From a gamma proteobacterium symbiont of Ctena orbiculata (GTDB lineage: Bacteria; Pseudomonadota; Gammaproteobacteria; Chromatiales; Chromatiaceae), in assembly GCA_003094535.1 (NCBI GenBank), contig NATV01000129.1, forward strand, positions 1 through 50,742: DNA of 50,742 bases, in the 5' to 3' direction. Under the pieces are notes generated by a model. That model made no database searches and was not told the DNA's origin. It saw nothing but the letters and a program-made list of their open reading frames with translations. A program made the translations under genes and the position numbers. Of the stretch, positions 3,645-44,256 are shown piece after piece (the stretch's first letter is position 1; every line of letters begins with the position of its first letter).

Positions 3645-3980
3645 ATGAAGAGACGATGGTTCATACCGCTACCCAAGTGGTTGTTCGGTGGCGATGCCAA
3701 GCCAGGGCAGGGTCGGCCCAACGGCAGTGACGAGCCAGATGCCAAGCGCCGGCGTTTTTTCACCCGCGCCGCCGTCAGTGCGGTGAGTGTGACCGGTACT
3801 GCCGGTCTGGCCAAGGCGGTGGTGGACAACCTCCCGCAACCCGACCTGAAACAGCGCTACAACAAAGATGCCGTCAACGGTGAAGAGGAGCTCCTGTCCC
3901 GTGAATATGTGCTCATGACCGAGCGTGAAAAGCAGATCATGGTGCAGACACTCATCGAAAACTACGACGAAAAATCCTGA
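3645..3980 (+). CDS. Small Tat-signal protein of the NrfD-type redox operon
   Basis: The 111-residue protein carries a twin-arginine motif RRRFFTR at 35-41 followed by a hydrophobic AAVSAVSVTGTAGLAKAVV stretch, so it is likely exported folded or anchored by its signal. It has no cysteine, so it binds no iron-sulfur cluster or c-type haem. Its C-terminal segment at 88-110 (Y-x-L-M-T-E-x-E-K-Q then L, Y, E) is clearly related to residues 59-81 of the ferredoxin encoded next. A strong AGGGGG ribosome site precedes the ATG, and the next gene starts 53 bases after the stop. I do not recognise a named family; an accessory subunit or chaperone for the complex is inference. Confidence 0.8.
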   Translation: MKRRWFIPLPKWLFGGDAKPGQGRPNGSDEPDAKRRRFFTRAAVSAVSVTGTAGLAKAVVDNLPQPDLKQRYNKDAVNGEEELLSREYVLMTEREKQIMVQTLIENYDEKS

Positions 3981-4033
3981 TCATCGGGTGATCGTTCCAT
4001 TCTATTCGATAGCCACTTGATCAGAGGACAACC

Positions 4034-5062
4034 ATGCCCAATCAAGAAAAGAGCAAAGAAAAAGATAGCAAACTCACCACCCGCCGGGATTTTCTGCGCG
4101 GCGCGGGCAACTACACGGTGGCATCACTCTCCGGAGCGGCGATGCTGCTGTCCAATCCCAAACCGGCAAAAGCGAATGTCACATGGGCGGAACACTTCCA
4201 GAAAAACTACCGACTGATGACCGAAGAGGAGAAGCAGGAGGCCATCGAACGCCTTGAAACCCGGTACTCCGAGGAGTACGGCCAAAAAGTCACAGTAGAC
4301 GGTACACCCTCCATAGATGGTGTTCTATTTGGTTATGCGCTGAATATTCAAAAGTGCATCGGTTGTCGGCGATGCGTTAAGGCCTGCGTGGCTGAGAACA
4401 ACCAGTCCCGCGGTGATGAACAGCAGATCGAATGGATTCGGGTTTTACGCATGGAAAAGGGGAATTTTTCCGCGGAGGACAGGGATCAGCATGGCTATCC
4501 GGAATCTTTTGGCGTTCAGGTCGGCGGTAACGCCTATAAACCTGCGGGGGTGGTGCTGGAGGGCCAACACTACTATGAGCCCGACCAGGTACCGGAAAAG
4601 GATGCCTTCTACTTCCCCATGCAATGCATGCAGTGTGAGAAGCCCCCATGCGTGAAGGTCTGTCCGGTACGCACAACCTATCGCGATCCGGACGGCATTG
4701 TCGTCGTCGACTACAACTGGTGCATCGGCTGTCGCATGTGCATCGGTGCCTGTCCCTACTGGGCAAGGCGATTCAACTGGGGCGAACCCAATCTACCGAA
4801 GGAGGAGTTGAATCCCCACACCCACTATCTCGGCAACCGCCCGCGTATGAAAGGGGTTGTGGAGAAGTGCACATACTGCGTGCAACGCACCCGCAAGGGG
4901 CGTTGGACTGCATGCGTCGAGGTCTGTCCCGTCGGCGCACGCAAATTCGGCAATCTACTGGATCCTAACAGTGAAATCCGCAAGGTCCTCGCCAAAAAGA
5001 AGGTGTTTCGCCTGCGGGCCGATCTCAACACCTATCCGAAGTTTTTCTATTTCATGGATTAA
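4034..5062 (+). CDS. Tat-exported four-cluster ferredoxin subunit (NrfC/HybA/DsrO-like)
   Basis: The 342-residue protein has a Tat signal TTRRDFLRG at 15-23. Sixteen cysteines form four 4Fe-4S sites: C108-C111-C114-C118, C198-C201-C206-C210, C230-C233-C236-C240, and C279-C282-C294-C298. This is the layout of the iron-sulfur subunits that pair with NrfD/PsrC-type membrane proteins. It should pass electrons in the periplasm between the membrane subunit and a cytochrome or catalytic partner. Residues 59-81 repeat the segment found at the end of the preceding Tat protein. No molybdopterin subunit is encoded nearby, which is unusual for such ferredoxins outside Nrf-, Qrc- and Dsr-like complexes. 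AGAGGA precedes the ATG. The stop touches the next open frame. Confidence 0.93.
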   Translation: MPNQEKSKEKDSKLTTRRDFLRGAGNYTVASLSGAAMLLSNPKPAKANVTWAEHFQKNYRLMTEEEKQEAIERLETRYSEEYGQKVTVDGTPSIDGVLFGYALNIQKCIGCRRCVKACVAENNQSRGDEQQIEWIRVLRMEKGNFSAEDRDQHGYPESFGVQVGGNAYKPAGVVLEGQHYYEPDQVPEKDAFYFPMQCMQCEKPPCVKVCPVRTTYRDPDGIVVVDYNWCIGCRMCIGACPYWARRFNWGEPNLPKEELNPHTHYLGNRPRMKGVVEKCTYCVQRTRKGRWTACVEVCPVGARKFGNLLDPNSEIRKVLAKKKVFRLRADLNTYPKFFYFMD

Positions 5063-5073
5063 TGGGAGATCTC

Positions 5074-6330
5074 ATGATGCGTTTTACTCAATTCGTGGTC
5101 GATTTCCTGCGGGCGGGATTCACCGGCGGCATCCTGTACTGGTGCTGGATGCTTTTCCTCGCATTCTTCATCATGCTCTGGGGCTACGGCGAGTATGTGC
5201 AGATCGCCAACGGCATGATCGTCACCAATCTCAATGATCAGGTCAGCTGGGGATTCTACCTGGCCAATTTCGTCTTCATGGTCGGCGTGGCCGCGGCCGC
5301 GGTCACCGTGGTGTTTCCCGCCTATGTCTACAAGCACAAGGAGCTGCACCGAATCGTCATCCTCGGTGAGATGCTCGCCATTGCCGCCGTGGTGATGTGC
5401 CTGTTGTTCGTGATTGCGCACATGGGAAGACCGGACCGGCTATGGCATATCCTTCCCGTGATCGGCATCTTCAACTGGCCCCATGCAATGTTGACATGGG
5501 ATGTGATCGTACTCAGCGGCTATCTGCTGCTCAACATCATCGGCGGTTTCTACTACCTGTATAAAAAATATGCCGGCACCGAAGTCAACAAGACGTTCTA
5601 TCTTACGATTGTCTATATCGCCATCGTCTGGGCGCTGAGTATCCATACGGTTACCGCTTTCCTGATCAATACCATGCCGGCGCGTCCGATGTGGTTCCAC
5701 TCGGTCATGCCGATCAAGTTCATTACCACCGCCTTTGCCGCCGGTCCTTCACTGATTATCATCGTATTCCTTCTGGTGCGTCGATTCACCCCAATGAAGA
5801 TCGCCGATGAAGCCTTCCACCTGCTCTCCCAAATCGTAGTCTGGTGCCTCGGTATCGCCCTGTTTCTGACCATGTCTGAAATCGTGACCGAGCTCTACCC
5901 GGCCACCGAACACTCCCTGGGCCTGCAATATCTGATGTTTGGACATAACGGCCTCAACTCCCTGGTGCCCTATTTCTGGACCGCACTCACCCTGATGGTG
6001 GTGTCATTCGTGCTGTTGCTGATACCCAGACTCAGAAAGAACCTGACCCTGCTGCCCTTCATCTGCGCAGCCGCTTTTATCGGCATTTGGATCGAAAAGG
6101 GTATGGGCCTGATGCTGCCCGGCGTTATCCCGACGCCGATCGGCGAGTTCGCGGAGTATACACCGAGCCATATCGAACTCATGGTTGTCGGCGGAGTATG
6201 GGCGATCGGTTTTTTCTTGCTCACCTTCATGCTTAAAGGCGCGGTCGCCGTACTTTTGGGCGAGGTTAGTTATCAGCCGCGGGCCGGCAAGCAACCTGTT
6301 TCAAGTGAACAGGGAGAAGCGACAATCTAA
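5074..6330 (+). CDS. nrfD: NrfD/PsrC-type membrane subunit
   Basis: The protein is a multi-helix membrane protein with about ten hydrophobic segments and the character of the NrfD/PsrC/HybB family: an acidic, aromatic-rich N-terminus, conserved WHSVMPIKFI-like loops, and GHNGLNSLVPYFW. Family members exchange electrons with the quinone pool, passing them to or from a periplasmic ferredoxin. I place the start at 5074 because GGGAG lies five bases upstream (eight before the second ATG at 5077); a frame-extending ATG at 5062 overlaps the previous stop but has no ribosome site. It directly follows its predicted ferredoxin partner. The gene symbol is the family name, not a claim of nitrite reduction. 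Confidence 0.9.
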   Translation: MMRFTQFVVDFLRAGFTGGILYWCWMLFLAFFIMLWGYGEYVQIANGMIVTNLNDQVSWGFYLANFVFMVGVAAAAVTVVFPAYVYKHKELHRIVILGEMLAIAAVVMCLLFVIAHMGRPDRLWHILPVIGIFNWPHAMLTWDVIVLSGYLLLNIIGGFYYLYKKYAGTEVNKTFYLTIVYIAIVWALSIHTVTAFLINTMPARPMWFHSVMPIKFITTAFAAGPSLIIIVFLLVRRFTPMKIADEAFHLLSQIVVWCLGIALFLTMSEIVTELYPATEHSLGLQYLMFGHNGLNSLVPYFWTALTLMVVSFVLLLIPRLRKNLTLLPFICAAAFIGIWIEKGMGLMLPGVIPTPIGEFAEYTPSHIELMVVGGVWAIGFFLLTFMLKGAVAVLLGEVSYQPRAGKQPVSSEQGEATI

Positions 6331-6376
6331 GTTCATGACTCATGGAATGTACAGACAAAATCGATTTGGAGAAAAA

Positions 6377-7189
6377 ATGATGACAAGCTATCGAAACTAT
6401 CTGTCAATCATGGGTTTGTGTTTGCTCGCGATCTTGTCGATCAAACCTGCGCTGGGCGCCGAGTTGCCGCAAAACAGCGAGTGTTTTGAAAGCAGGGACG
6501 GTATGTCTCAGGTTAATGTCCATGACACAGCAACGGGTGTGGTGAATGTGAAATGCTCACCCGATACCGGAGGCGTGCTGTGGTGGGGAGATCCTTTCGA
6601 AGGCACCATCCCCATGGGGGATATGGAAGTTGAAGCAGACTACTGGCACGAAGAGGCCGTGGTGAAACCCCGTGAACCGCAGATAGACAGGAACAAAATG
6701 CTGACAATATGCGGCATGGCCTGCCACAACGGCGTCTACGTTCCGATCCCATACAACAAGGATCCCCGCCCGTTGAAGATGCATCTGGACATCATCCCGG
6801 ATGCCATGAATCTTAAACATGGCAAAGGGAGCGTTTGGTGTCTGGATTGTCACCACTTGGTCGATCGCACCAAGCTGATCGACAACTTCGGTTATTCAGT
6901 CAGCTTCAACCAACCGCAGAAGCTCTGCGGCAAGTGCCACGGTCAGGTCTATCGTTCCTGGCGCGACGGTATCCACGGAAAACGCATCGGGATGTGGGAC
7001 AAGGGCGGTAAAAAACGCTGGTGGGTCTGCACTGAATGCCACAATCCGCACGATGTTGAACAGGGCGATAGAAACTCCGGTTACGCCCAGTTGGCCCCGG
7101 AACCTGCACCCAACCTGCCTAAGGGGATGACTAATGCGGACCATGAAAGGATGCATCATGGTCCAAGCAAAAGTGAATCACTGCATTAA
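6377..7189 (+). CDS. Exported multihaem cytochrome c (three CXXCH plus one CX3CH)
   Basis: The 270-residue protein starts at the ATG pair 6377/6380 behind GGAG; the open frame extends upstream into the NrfD gene but without a start signal. A signal peptide spans about 1-28 (cut after ALGA). Haem motifs are CLDCH at 155-159, CGKCH at 184-188 and CTECH at 218-222, plus CGMACH at 112-117, where three rather than two residues separate the cysteines. Extra histidines (HH at 159-160, H200, H225) could be second ligands. It is probably the periplasmic electron partner of the ferredoxin-NrfD module, like NrfB or the Cbc-type cytochromes of metal reducers. The two extra cysteines C36 and C60 may form a disulfide. 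The gene begins 46 bases after nrfD. Confidence 0.88.
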   Translation: MMTSYRNYLSIMGLCLLAILSIKPALGAELPQNSECFESRDGMSQVNVHDTATGVVNVKCSPDTGGVLWWGDPFEGTIPMGDMEVEADYWHEEAVVKPREPQIDRNKMLTICGMACHNGVYVPIPYNKDPRPLKMHLDIIPDAMNLKHGKGSVWCLDCHHLVDRTKLIDNFGYSVSFNQPQKLCGKCHGQVYRSWRDGIHGKRIGMWDKGGKKRWWVCTECHNPHDVEQGDRNSGYAQLAPEPAPNLPKGMTNADHERMHHGPSKSESLH

Positions 7190-7267: not shown

Positions 7268-8050
7268 ATGAAAACCAAACTGGTCGATGGGGAAAGAGGC
7301 GTGACAACAAGTTTCCAGAATAGAGAAAAGACCAGGCGACAGGCATTCGAGTCGATCTGGGAAAGCCAGATCGATGCGGTGTTTGCCGATGTCGCAGCGG
7401 TCTATGACAGAGCCAACGATTTTGCCAGTCTCGGTACCCTGAAAGGTCTGCGTCGTAAGTTCATTGCGACGATTGACGTATCCCCCGGGCAACGGGTCCT
7501 CGATGTCTGCGCCGGAACCAACGTGATCGGCATCGATTTGCTGAAAAAGGAGCCGGACCTTGATATCCACGCCGTCGATCGCAGTGACGCCATGCAGAAA
7601 GTCGGCAAAGACCGTGCTTCACAGCAGGGCTTTGAAATCAAGGGGCGCATCTGCGATGTGCACCAACTGCCGTTCCCCGACAACCATTTCGATATCGTCA
7701 CCCTGCAGTACGCGACACGCCACTTGCGCGTGATTGATGTTTTCTCGGAGATCAATCGGGTGCTCAAACCGGGGGGACACTTCTATCACTTCGACATGCT
7801 CAGGCCGGCCAACAAAATCATCGAAGAGGCATATTGCCTCTATTTGAAAGGGTGTCTCAAAACGATCTCCTGGGCCATCAATTGTGGTCCCGAAGCGAGA
7901 ACCTGCTGTGACTACTTCATCGATGCCATACGTCTCTTCTACTCCACGGATGAACTCTCTCGCCTGCTCTCAGAATTGGGTTTTTCCGATGTCGACGGCA
8001 GATCACTGCTGGGCGGTACGGTTGCGATCCATAAGGCGTGCAAGGTTTAG
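7268..8050 (+). CDS. UbiE/COQ5-like SAM-dependent methyltransferase
   Basis: The 260-residue protein shows class I methyltransferase motifs: motif I VLDVCAGTN at about 78-86, an acidic residue at the end of strand 2 (IHAVDRSD), LPFPDNHFDIVTLQYATRH as motif II, and RVLKPGGHFYHFDML as motif III. This set is typical of the UbiE-related family that methylates quinone precursors. The N-terminal FADVAAVYDRANDFASLG resembles the YDxxN segment of UbiE. It lies 78 bases after the cytochrome gene and ten before the next short frame, so it is probably cotranscribed. The ATG at 7268 lacks a ribosome site; a GTG at 7301 behind GGGGAA is an alternative. The substrate is unknown. Confidence 0.85.
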   Translation: MKTKLVDGERGVTTSFQNREKTRRQAFESIWESQIDAVFADVAAVYDRANDFASLGTLKGLRRKFIATIDVSPGQRVLDVCAGTNVIGIDLLKKEPDLDIHAVDRSDAMQKVGKDRASQQGFEIKGRICDVHQLPFPDNHFDIVTLQYATRHLRVIDVFSEINRVLKPGGHFYHFDMLRPANKIIEEAYCLYLKGCLKTISWAINCGPEARTCCDYFIDAIRLFYSTDELSRLLSELGFSDVDGRSLLGGTVAIHKACKV

Positions 8051-8059
8051 GAGAAGTTG

Positions 8060-8092
8060 ATGACAGATGCGCAGATAGATTATGAGAAATGA
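8060..8092 (+). CDS. Possible ten-codon leader or coupling ORF before cytochrome c
   Basis: A GGAGAAG ribosome site at 8050-8056 sits correctly before an ATG at 8060 that opens only MTDAQIDYEK before a TGA at 8090-8092. It overlaps the start region of the following cytochrome gene (ATG at 8082 or 8097). It could couple translation of the cytochrome to upstream ribosomes, or be the remnant of an older start. Nothing shows that the peptide itself matters. Confidence 0.3.
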   Translation: MTDAQIDYEK

Positions 8093-8423
8093 CATTATGA
8101 CGATTGATAACAGATTGTTTGCTTTCATTTGCATCATTGCAATCACGCTGTCACCGGTTTCGGCAGTGGCATTGGATGCGCCTGCCCTCTACCACGAACG
8201 CACCTGCATTGCCTGTCATGGAAGCAACGGCAGAGAACCGGCAATGGATGAATATCCAAAATTAGCCGGACAGTCTGAAGAGTATCTGCTGACTCAGATG
8301 AAGGACATTAAAAGCGGATCGCGTTCGAATGCGCACTCGATTGCGATGAAAAATGTTATGCATCTGATCAGCGACGAGGAGATGTCAGTATTGGCGAAGT
8401 GGCTGGCAAAGCTGCCTGAATAA
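8082..8423 (+). CDS. Small monohaem cytochrome c (class I, c553-like)
   Basis: The 113-residue precursor has a signal peptide ending near SAVA at 27-30, one haem site CIACH at 42-46, and a methionine-rich MKNVM segment near 88 that should give the distal ligand. YPKLAGQ and the SDEEM-x-LAKWLA ending match the c4/c553 type. It is expected to shuttle electrons in the periplasm. It is clearly paralogous to the cytochrome at 9367-9702 (shared YPK-AGQ, GSRSN, SDEEM, WLAK). A second ATG at 8097 is preceded by GAGAAAT and may be the real start. Its position after the NrfD-type operon suggests it accepts or donates electrons for that complex. Confidence 0.9.
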   Translation: MRNDIMTIDNRLFAFICIIAITLSPVSAVALDAPALYHERTCIACHGSNGREPAMDEYPKLAGQSEEYLLTQMKDIKSGSRSNAHSIAMKNVMHLISDEEMSVLAKWLAKLPE

Positions 8424-8463: not shown

Positions 8464-8919
8464 TCAACGCCAGGCGGCATCAGCCAGAGAGCTGACCTGT
8501 TCGTAATAGGCATCACGATCCATGCCAAGCACAGTGGCGCCGAAGATTTCCGCGTCGTTTGCGGTGGCGAGATCGCCGTAATTGACCAGTACCAACTGAT
8601 AGAGAATAAGCGCGGGTAGATCGGCGTGTCGATTTTCGAAATAACTGTGCAACAAGATAGTGTAGCCATCATCAGGATTGTCGGAAACAGCTTCAGTCTT
8701 GGCGAACATCCCTGGTTCAATTTCTCCGGACACAAATCTGACCTGTACCGGATAGCGAACCGACTTACGATCGCCAAGCATGCTGAGCACGGTTTGGTAA
8801 TCAATGTTGTTACCATAACGGTTTCGAATCTCTTTTGCCTTTTCAAGGGCATGCAGCGAGACCGCACCGTGAATGACCTTACCTGCTCTTTTCTTGACCT
8901 TGGGTGTTTGATCTGTCAT
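8464..8919 (-). CDS. Hypothetical protein, 151 residues
   Basis: This minus-strand gene lies between two paralogous cytochrome genes, reading against them. I take the ATG at 8919, giving MTDQTPKVKKRAGKV; the open frame reaches 9030, but that extension would overlap the divergent gene at 8956. The protein is soluble in appearance, with a basic N-terminus, a charged helix around ALEKAKEIRNRYG, and an acidic C-terminal half. There is no signal peptide, no cysteine motif and no family I recognise. Coding-like composition and a clean length support a real gene. A role linked to the cytochromes is only suggested by position. Confidence 0.6.
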   Translation of the reverse strand: MTDQTPKVKKRAGKVIHGAVSLHALEKAKEIRNRYGNNIDYQTVLSMLGDRKSVRYPVQVRFVSGEIEPGMFAKTEAVSDNPDDGYTILLHSYFENRHADLPALILYQLVLVNYGDLATANDAEIFGATVLGMDRDAYYEQVSSLADAAWR

Positions 8920-8955
8920 GACAATTTTACTCGTTTTAACGGCCGGGGATAGACA

Positions 8956-9327
8956 ATGTCTGACTATAAACTGAAGTTTAGCGAAGATCCTATTGAGGAA
9001 TCCAGGCAACGCACCATGGATGAGATCCATCAGTTTATCGGGATGATGGACGGGCGGCCACTCGCGGTGGTGACGCTTAACGATGAACAGAGCGCGCTTT
9101 GGGATTCCGAGGGAGACATCGATTACCAGGATCAGTTTGGACGGCAGATTGTCAATCAGGTTTCAGATGGCATCACTGAAACCCTGCTCATCCGCAACCA
9201 CCAGGGTTTTCCGCTGGCGTTGGCGGCATTGAACGCAAGTGATGGCTGGCAGGGAATAGGTATAGACAGACGTTTGCGCTTTGAGGTCGCGAGGATGTTT
9301 CAGAATGATGAAACTGAATTCATGTAA
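8956..9327 (+). CDS. Hypothetical protein, 123 residues
   Basis: The gene starts 36 bases from the divergent hypothetical gene and ends 39 bases before a cytochrome c gene on the same strand, so it probably shares the cytochrome transcript. The protein is acidic, cytoplasmic in appearance, lacks cysteine, and contains a central DIDYQDQFGRQIVNQVSDG segment. GGGGATAG lies before the ATG. I recognise no domain. The short divergent spacer (8920-8955) must hold both ribosome sites and any promoters. Confidence 0.65.
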   Translation: MSDYKLKFSEDPIEESRQRTMDEIHQFIGMMDGRPLAVVTLNDEQSALWDSEGDIDYQDQFGRQIVNQVSDGITETLLIRNHQGFPLALAALNASDGWQGIGIDRRLRFEVARMFQNDETEFM

Positions 9328-9366: not shown

Positions 9367-9702
9367 ATGATGAACATTTCGATTTGCAGGGCACTGTCTC
9401 TTGTTGGACTCATTGCAAGCTTCCTAATCTCCACCGCCTATGCCCAAAATAGCGATGATGACACCGCCAGTCTCTATCTCGCCAAGGCTTGTGCGGGATG
9501 TCATGGCGTGGACGGCCGTTCACCTGTGAAACCCTACTACCCGAAGGTTGCAGGACAAAACGAAGCCTACCTCTACAATCAACTGCGTGACTTGAAAAAC
9601 GGCAGCCGCAGTAACAGCCAATCGAATATCATGAAAGGCATCATGACGGCTGTCAGTGATGAGGAGATGCGTGCAATCGCCGCATGGCTTGCAAAACAGT
9701 AG
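9367..9702 (+). CDS. Small monohaem cytochrome c, paralogue of the one at 8082
   Basis: The 111-residue precursor has a signal peptide cut after AYA at 24-26, one haem site CAGCH at 42-46, and IMKGIM near 88 for the methionine ligand. The pattern YPKVAGQNEAYL, GSRSNSQSN and SDEEM-AIAAWLAK closely follows that of the neighbouring cytochrome, so the two arose by duplication. A strong GGGAGG ribosome site precedes two in-frame ATGs (9367, 9370). It converges on nudB. As a c553-like protein it should carry single electrons in the periplasm. Confidence 0.92.
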   Translation: MMNISICRALSLVGLIASFLISTAYAQNSDDDTASLYLAKACAGCHGVDGRSPVKPYYPKVAGQNEAYLYNQLRDLKNGSRSNSQSNIMKGIMTAVSDEEMRAIAAWLAKQ

Positions 9703-42948: not shown

Positions 42949-44256
42949 ATGATGAATACGGGAATAATTGAACTTCTTGCATTCGGCTTGGTTGCGATTA
43001 TCGCCGGGTTCTTTCTCCTCATTAGCATGGTACGCGAACTTGCACCCAAGCAGCGGAGAAAATGGCTGCTGGGAATCGGCCTGGGAACCGGCATCATTGC
43101 GTTCAGTTTGAAGATAGGCCTGATCGTGCTCTTTTCCCTCTATCCAGGGCCCATGTTGTCACTCTTTCCAGAGCGTCAATACGAATATGCTCCACGCTCT
43201 CTCCCCGATGGCAGGCGGTATGACTCGAGCATGGTGAAAACCCCCTATACCTGGCAGGCACTGCCCTCCTCCGCGCCATCGCCAGGGGACAATCCGCTGA
43301 CGGCAGAGAAGACAAGGCTTGGAAAAATGCTTTTCTTCGATACCCGGTTATCGGCGGACGGCACCCTGTCATGTGCATCCTGCCATGAGATCTCCAACGA
43401 TAAAGGGGGGGGTGACGGTTTGCGTGCGTCTATCGGTATCAACGGCCAACAGGGGACGAGAAACGCCCCCACAGTACTCAACGCGGCCTTCCAGAAGGTG
43501 TTGTTCTGGGACGGGCGCGCCGCTTCCCTGGAGGATCAGGCCAAGGGACCGCTGATCAATCCCATCGAGATGGGCATGCCCTCACTGGATCAGGTGGTAG
43601 AAACCGTGAGCGGCATACCAGCGTACATCGAGGCATTCGCCGCGGCATTTCCCGGTCAGCCGTCGATCACTATCGACAACATCGCCAAGGCCATCGCCGC
43701 CTACGAACGCACCCTGATAACCCCGGATTCACCCTATGACCGTTTCGTCAGGGGCGATCGCAGCGCACTCACCGCGCAACAGATCCGCGGCATGGCGCTG
43801 TTCGAATCAACCGGCTGCGTCCTCTGCCACTCCGGACCCAACTTCAGCGCTGCAAGCATCTTCGTTGATGACATTCCCTTTAGACTGTTTCCCTCTGTGC
43901 CCGATACCGAGTACGACCGGCAATACGGCTTTACGGATGACCGAGGGGCTGCGCCCGACAAGAGCGGCTCAAAATCCGGTATCTGGCGCATTCCCTCGCT
44001 GCGCAATGTCAATCGAACCGGCCCCTATTTCCATAACGGATCGGTAGCCTCGCTGGAGGAGGCGGTGCGCATCATGGCGCGTGTTCAACTCAACAAATCC
44101 CTGAGCAACAGCGCACTCGATGATCGATCCATTCAATGGCTGTCCGGAGATCAGCGGCTGGCGGTTGCCACCCACCAGGCACTGAGCGATAGCGAGGTTG
44201 ATGAGATTGTAGCCTTTCTCAAAGCCTTGGATGGTGAACTGCCGCCTCTCCATTGA
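42949..44256 (+). CDS. Membrane-anchored dihaem cytochrome c peroxidase-like protein
   Basis: The 435-residue protein has two N-terminal membrane helices (about 5-27 and 40-62) and then the MauG/CcpA fold with haem sites CASCH at 142-146 and CVLCH at 290-294. GTRNAPTVLNAAF, LFWDGRAASLEDQA and the FHNGSVASLEEAV near the end are typical peroxidase segments. It should reduce hydrogen peroxide, or another substrate, in the periplasm using electrons from a c-type cytochrome. Classical CcpA is soluble, so the two-helix anchor is notable. GGAGAG precedes the ATG pair 42949/42952. Its end overlaps the convergent diguanylate cyclase gene by 38 bases. Confidence 0.92.
   Translation: MMNTGIIELLAFGLVAIIAGFFLLISMVRELAPKQRRKWLLGIGLGTGIIAFSLKIGLIVLFSLYPGPMLSLFPERQYEYAPRSLPDGRRYDSSMVKTPYTWQALPSSAPSPGDNPLTAEKTRLGKMLFFDTRLSADGTLSCASCHEISNDKGGGDGLRASIGINGQQGTRNAPTVLNAAFQKVLFWDGRAASLEDQAKGPLINPIEMGMPSLDQVVETVSGIPAYIEAFAAAFPGQPSITIDNIAKAIAAYERTLITPDSPYDRFVRGDRSALTAQQIRGMALFESTGCVLCHSGPNFSAASIFVDDIPFRLFPSVPDTEYDRQYGFTDDRGAAPDKSGSKSGIWRIPSLRNVNRTGPYFHNGSVASLEEAVRIMARVQLNKSLSNSALDDRSIQWLSGDQRLAVATHQALSDSEVDEIVAFLKALDGELPPLH

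Follow-up and report, generated by a model that had tools for sequence, protein, structure and literature searches.

A conserved FeS–NrfD–tetrahaem cytochrome module in a Ctena orbiculata symbiont as a candidate quinol:cytochrome c oxidoreductase

In the usual view of respiratory chains, cytochrome c is reached by way of the bc1 complex or alternative complex III. Contig NATV01000129.1 (assembly GCA_003094535.1) of a gammaproteobacterial symbiont of Ctena orbiculata, analysed here over its full 50,742 nucleotides and called the window below, carries at positions 3645–7189 four genes which, on balance, would encode a membrane-bound quinol:cytochrome c oxidoreductase of a third type beside these two. 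Their products are a small protein with a twin-arginine translocation (Tat) signal, an iron–sulphur (FeS) subunit, an NrfD-like membrane subunit and a tetrahaem cytochrome c. The first-pass annotation did not recognise this combination; the kind is, however, already in print from cable bacteria as an uncharacterised locus, named pACIII in EMBO Reports in 2025 (PMC11976967) and TMH1-DsrOhPh-tetrahaem in BMC Genomics in 2026 (PMC13047784), the only two sources in the literature searched to use the names pACIII and DsrOhPh. According to the available passages of the latter, both Gamma- and Betaproteobacteria have DsrOhPh-tetrahaem relatives that stand apart from canonical dsrMKJOP; electron flow from quinone to the periplasm is suggested with the function left open, and the model comes closest to MccACD or possibly to alternative complex III, with DsrPh and MccD not clustering together (PMC13047784). 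For the cable-bacteria version, excerpts of both papers put forward either electron flow from quinone to the periplasm or an alternative complex III (PMC11976967, PMC13047784), and the accessible part of a 2024 paper in Microbial Genomics reports DsrOP homologues located apart from dsrMKJ (PMC10926707). Compared by published text, the set is the same as in the window: a small protein, a DsrO-like FeS protein, a DsrP-like NrfD and a tetrahaem cytochrome.

The four open reading frames (ORFs) follow one another on the + strand, as the first-pass annotation had described. The small Tat-signal protein (3645..3980, +; 111 residues) contains no cysteine, again as described. The DsrO/NrfC-like FeS subunit (4034..5062, +; 342 residues) bears a Tat signal and 16 cysteines in four motifs of four (C108-118, C198-210, C230-240 and C279-298) with Pfam Fer4 matches, which agrees with the exported protein of four cluster sites predicted earlier; it shares 96% identity with its counterpart in a lucinid-symbiont gammaproteobacterium. 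The NrfD/DsrP-like quinone-reactive membrane subunit (5062..6330, +; 422 residues) matched PF03916 with 118 bits and has 11 hydrophobic segments in a simple scan. The exported cytochrome (6377..7189, +; 270 residues), whose start codon is most likely the ATG at 6377 rather than the listed TTG at 6185, matched the Pfam family Cytochrome_C7 weakly (27 bits) and holds four haem sites in the order CGMACH (6710..6727, +; CX3CH), CLDCH, CGKCH and CTECH. No molybdopterin (Mo) enzyme-like frame was found anywhere in the window, which bears out the earlier remark that the catalytic molybdopterin subunit is missing from the set.

A contig search with the FeS protein gave 174 relatives, of which the best 80 were analysed as loci; their record titles include Thiodiazotropha, Sedimenticola, Acidiferrobacteraceae, Rhodocyclaceae, Sulfurisoma, 'Ca. 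Nitricoxidireducens' and Deltaproteobacteria. The NrfD gene was present in 77 of the 80 and the cytochrome gene in 71, the nine loci lacking the latter all stopping inside the module at contig ends. In every complete locus (71/71) the FeS, NrfD and cytochrome genes had the same order, strand and spacing within 4.5 kb, and because order and strand are kept wherever the locus reaches far enough, the module is not a chance arrangement. In G654 (L127:670-2775, −) NrfD and the tetrahaem cytochrome share one open frame of 701 residues, a single case and possibly an assembly error. The invariable gene order together with this joined frame suggests that the products form one complex.

The first haem site of the cytochrome reads CX3CH in 52 of the 71 relatives and CXXCH in 19, two of the 71 sequences (L034 and L058) being incomplete. 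Across 40 aligned rows, three histidines (His148, His200 and His225) never vary and a fourth, His256, hardly does; these residues could serve as distal haem ligands. The haem part is preceded by an N-terminal CFESR...NVKCS stretch whose Cys36 and Cys60 are invariant in the same rows. There was no convincing match to a solved structure (best E 0.086) and none to the DsrJ model at E 0.001.

The small Tat protein had no Pfam or NCBIfam match at E 0.001, and its AlphaFold model was too poor for use, with a predicted local distance difference test score (pLDDT) of 63.7. Its C-terminal segment 'YVLMTEREK' is similar to the N-terminal part of the mature FeS subunit. Indeed, a profile of the small protein also picks up FeS-protein N-termini with E down to 5e-8, and a profile–profile comparison excluding the signal region aligned the two over 25 columns with a probability of 95% and an E of 3.7e-8, the latter for a single template. 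Moreover, the small Tat/FeS pair of the window scored 55, the maximum in 2000 shuffles being 51. The small protein is widespread and resembles the FeS N-terminus, which is an addition of this analysis; the first-pass annotation, which knew this subunit from none of the NrfBCD, Qrc, Dsr and Cbc complexes, was incomplete on this point.

The distribution of the small gene is less uniform than that of the other three. The co-occurrence of all four genes, which had been put forward for checking, held for the FeS–NrfD–cytochrome trio and not for the small Tat gene, which lies immediately 5' of the FeS gene in just 46 of the 80 loci; the remaining 34, without it upstream, are by title mostly Betaproteobacteria and other Gammaproteobacteria. 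In the cultured Sulfurisoma sediminicola BSN1, which has the module (L079), no small Tat gene was found. The cable-bacteria paper regards TMH1 as unique to cable bacteria, whereas the 46 relatives here carry a small Tat gene as its possible counterpart. Among 297 genomes of one phylum (that of G028), 13 matched the small Tat profile at E 1e-5, and 12 of these coincide exactly with the set of genomes that have a module-type NrfD (at least 624 bits), the FeS gene being adjacent in each; at least seven of the 12 had supplied query rows for the profile, so that four or five are independent. The thirteenth match is weak and lies inside a 504-residue frame. A sample of 369 genomes of the class gave eight matches: three strong, two weak beside the FeS gene, one FeS N-terminus and two weak ones without explanation. 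Since a strong tetrahaem-cytochrome match was found in eight of these 369 genomes and the small Tat gene in fewer, the latter is optional in this class; two of the five class genomes with the small gene end ahead of the cytochrome.

A second architecture, with the order cytochrome–FeS–NrfD, came from four weak cytochrome matches (80–105 bits) and 18 NrfD matches (464–484 bits). The order was the same in 4/4 cases of the class sample and in 17/18 of the phylum sample, the eighteenth meeting the locus edge, and no small Tat gene was present in the stretches covered. This sister module is likewise added by the present analysis. Five further NrfD matches of 368–394 bits belong to canonical dsrMKJOP, all five in M-K-J-O-P order. 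In the NrfD tree the module type (type A, 24 rows) formed a branch with values of 97/96, the sister type (type B, 18 rows) one with 83/89 and DsrP (5 rows) one with 100/100, type A thus being separate from canonical reductive DsrP; long branches outside the three groups carried L161, a divergent relative, and also the genome's own oxidative DsrP. The tree is of NrfD only and leaves out four partial sister-module proteins (L098–L101), the FeS tree being unused because a length filter on hidden Markov model pieces had removed all sister-module and DsrO relatives. In the sister FeS proteins of the class sample (L098, L099, L100 and L101) the first cluster motif reads CxGYRxC, with one cysteine fewer. 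An octahaem cytochrome gene directly follows the sister NrfD gene in L130 (21-1412, −) and L131 (2719-4125, +).

Residues of the quinone site were mapped with five fetched QrcD proteins and an alignment to solved ActC (6f0k_C). The spacing Tyr110-Asp120-Ser138-Tyr150 is repeated in all five QrcD (with Glu replacing Asp in one), and the ActC alignment reproduces His139, Ser164 and Arg395 of R. marinus at their printed numbers; QrcD Asp70 was not reliably placed and was left unused. Type A comprised 72 rows: the window plus those of the 77 NrfD frames that exceed 380 residues (71 frames). The position of QrcD Asp120 and ActC His139 is His in 72/72 type A rows (His120 in the window), as opposed to Asp in 18/18 sister type B rows, 5/5 reductive DsrP, the genome's oxidative DsrP (1/1) and four of the QrcD, the fifth having Glu. 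This His-for-Asp exchange is proposed here as a quinone-site signature of the module. The pocket serine is Ser in 54/72 and Ala in 18/72 type A rows, including the window (Ala142). The channel gate is Lys in 72/72 (Lys346 in the window), also in type B and in 5/5 reductive DsrP, and a published review gives Lys at the gate of DsrP1 likewise. The Tyr150 position of QrcD is Tyr throughout type A (72/72; Tyr154 in the window), while that of QrcD Tyr110 is Val or Ile in module NrfD. In the FeS subunit, the motif CIGCRMC has Met in 80/81 rows (Met235 in the window) where QrcC reads CRYC, the tyrosine of which was taken as Tyr113 by its description in print and not by numbering. Among 27 FeS entries of intermediate score (duplicates kept), 21 had Tyr and six Met at this position.

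The family searches suggested by the first-pass annotation gave a divided answer: Nrf and Qrc cut-offs were not reached, and the NrfD protein proved close to reductive DsrP. It exceeded the NCBIfam DsrP cut-off (357.2 vs 350 bits), the FeS protein staying just below that of DsrO (184.1 vs 200 bits), and the module, which is kin to reductive DsrOP, shares the Lys gate with all five fetched DsrP. It differs from DsrMKJOP in having His and not Asp at the quinone site, no cytochrome matching the DsrJ model and no DsrM, K and J alongside, these being encoded on contig C107, and its NrfD stands on a separate branch of the tree. With alternative complex III (ActABCDEF) it shares the proposed reaction and His120 at the position of ActC His139, but it lacks a Mo-like ActB, has one NrfD instead of two, carries Lys and not Arg at the gate and has four cysteines in the cluster motif where the three ActB chains shown have Thr; sequence kinship is weak. 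A search for TIGR04519 (the ActB Tat extension) gave 0/18, and the control genomes were blank for this family too. QrcABCD resembles the module in pairing FeS and NrfD subunits with a multihaem cytochrome, yet the corresponding scores are 157.1 of 400 bits for QrcC and 40.5 of 570 bits for QrcD, no QrcB lies in the window, and residues of the quinone site and the proton path differ at several positions. NrfBCD and MccCD likewise combine a quinone-linked FeS and NrfD pair with a cytochrome as output; the module is far under the Nrf cut-offs (NrfC 107.5 of 377.6 bits, NrfD 18.5 of 347.6 bits).

The genome holds NrfD genes at three separate places: the module cluster, contig C107 and contig C125. 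The C107 gene belongs to an rDsr operon and the C125 gene to a SoeABC-like cluster, names given chiefly on gene order and letters. On C107, DsrO is above its model cut-off (309 bits), while DsrJ (68.5, cut-off 100) and DsrP (L085:7725-8912; 59 bits to NCBIfam DsrP) match below theirs. Since the module NrfD passes the DsrP model and the operon's DsrP does not, automatic annotation may mislabel both. Co-occurrence was assessed in 50 module genomes picked from the 80 loci, the assemblies of which are likely incomplete. The bc1 Rieske protein was over its cut-off in 34/50, DsrA in 21/50 and NosZ in 25/50, ten of the NosZ matches being weak (31–46 bits) and the count standing without a background rate; among the 16 genomes without Rieske, 11 had a cytochrome b-type match over the cut-off, three of them strong (119–127 bits). 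The module is therefore neither a simple substitute for bc1 nor dedicated to one such pathway alone: its role as a general replacement of bc1 and its ties to the Dsr pathway and to N2O reduction were each rejected on these counts.

The module is best read as passing electrons from quinol to cytochrome c because the FeS and haem exit is periplasmic, the quinone site has the ActC/NrfD-like His, and soluble cytochromes c are encoded downstream in 16/71 loci. The gene set, the cofactor motifs, the conserved order, the likeness of the small protein to the FeS N-terminus and the His at the site are observed; for complex formation, direction, acceptor, proton coupling and the role of the small protein we infer the following scheme. 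Quinol would bind NrfD on the periplasmic side near His120, and the four [4Fe-4S] clusters of the FeS subunit would carry its electrons to the tetrahaem cytochrome. Soluble monohaem cytochromes c, for instance the ones encoded downstream, would then take them on to oxidases or nitrogen-oxide reductases. Protons would be released outside or moved via an NrfD channel gated by Lys346, with the small Tat protein possibly acting as an anchoring or capping subunit through the short segment that it has in common with the FeS N-terminus. A more tentative extension, to which we give less than even weight, is that the enzyme represents a third, independently evolved quinol:cytochrome c oxidoreductase of Gammaproteobacteria, Betaproteobacteria and Deltaproteobacteria-titled records: a relative of reductive DsrP in which His replaced the Asp of the quinone site, with a fourth subunit that arose by duplication of the FeS N-terminal segment, and which often works in parallel to bc1.

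Several observations weigh against a quinol:cytochrome c oxidoreductase. The Rieske protein in 34/50 module genomes, and a cytochrome b in the window genome as well, leave the need for a second enzyme unexplained, and no tested acceptor or pathway marker is present throughout (NosZ 25/50, DsrA 21/50). The pocket serine, stated in the published passages available for all quinone-binding NrfD-like subunits, is Ala in the window and 17 other type A rows; according to such passages, S138A abolishes Qrc activity, whereas the HybB counterpart tolerates change. The accessible accounts also report His at the site in SoeC of sulphite dehydrogenase and about two thirds of the activity kept after Asp-to-Ala exchange in QrcD, so this residue leaves the direction unfixed and may matter less than assumed. 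Finally, the AlphaFold model of the cytochrome is poor (pLDDT 58.4), and Foldseek returned nothing with it.

The reverse direction, in which a Qrc-like cytochrome c:quinone reductase feeds periplasmic electrons to the quinone pool, seems unlikely. Quinone reduction from typical monohaem cytochromes c is uphill, which counts against it, as do the Qrc scores far under the cut-offs, the lack of a Mo-like QrcB in the window and the exchanges of QrcD Tyr110 to Val/Ile, QrcD Asp120 to His and the QrcC CRYC tyrosine to Met. The conserved Tyr at QrcD Tyr150 and the weak matches to the QrcC and QrcD models speak for such a direction, and QrcABCD, with related FeS and NrfD subunits, is described in the excerpts available as an electrogenic cytochrome c3:menaquinone reductase (PMC6303296, PMC13059093). 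That the module is instead the dedicated donor of one periplasmic reductase encoded elsewhere, as NrfBCD is for NrfA and MccCD for MccA, is rather improbable. The subunit logic is the same, an octahaem cytochrome follows the sister module in L130 and L131, and in Azonexus and Propionivibrio records (L047:3811-11042, L062) the module comes after a Mo enzyme with its own FeS relative; however, no reductase family was recognised by eye among recurring neighbour clusters (no search was aimed at NrfA, MccA or nitrite reductases), and NosZ is found in just half of the module genomes.

Service to the Dsr sulphur pathway as a DsrOP pair, already disfavoured, has very little probability. The score of the module NrfD over the DsrP cut-off (357 vs 350 bits) would fit it, but another contig of the genome carries a dsr operon that includes O and P, and queries with the DsrM, K and J of that operon gave nothing at E 1e-5, neither in the window nor across the 80 loci. 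Moreover, DsrA exceeds its cut-off in only 21/50 module genomes, and 5 of 16 hosts lack sulphur metabolism according to the passages available (PMC13047784). We give equally scant credence to a molybdopterin subunit from elsewhere completing a Psr- or Soe-like enzyme. A Mo-enzyme-like frame lies near 7/80 loci, so that such a subunit is not constantly encoded beside the relatives, and none was seen in the other 73, the cytochrome with 5 kb on each side being available in only 30/80. Six of the seven loci hold another FeS or NrfD relative; therefore, their Mo genes may belong to other complexes.

If it is true that the module oxidises quinol and reduces cytochrome c, then sulphur-oxidising symbionts, Rhodocyclaceae and their relatives and, by published reports, cable bacteria would possess a compact third route, the energy-yield calculations for these bacteria would change, and the missing complex III of cable bacteria would have a stronger candidate. 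The mapped residues give point mutations with clear predictions. There is also a warning for annotation in that the current DsrP family model accepts the module NrfD and gives the genome's own rDsr DsrP just 59 bits, far from its cut-off of 350.

Downstream of the module, a UbiE-like methyltransferase paralogue (7268..8050, +) scores 122 bits to PF01209, the canonical UbiE encoded elsewhere in the genome reaching 312 bits. Such a paralogue lies 3' of the cytochrome gene in 12/71 loci, one an Acidiferrobacteraceae record; it possibly shares the transcription unit of the module and is a possible quinone-modifying partner. A scan for promoters and terminators gave nothing in excess of shuffles. 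Two monohaem cytochromes c (8082..8423, + and 9367..9702, +) are candidate electron acceptors, and the 16 loci with monohaem cytochromes c downstream are all gammaproteobacterial records near this lineage. By-eye matching placed the ORFs 8464-9030 (−) and 8956-9327 (+) with look-alike clusters in 9 and 14 fetched loci, respectively, the members of which have no Pfam match, as is the case for a small protein family (L051:7287-7631, −) present in 15 fetched loci. Farther along the window, the ORF at 42949-44256 contains two CXXCH motifs and, by eye and from its letters only, resembles a cytochrome c peroxidase or a MauG relative.

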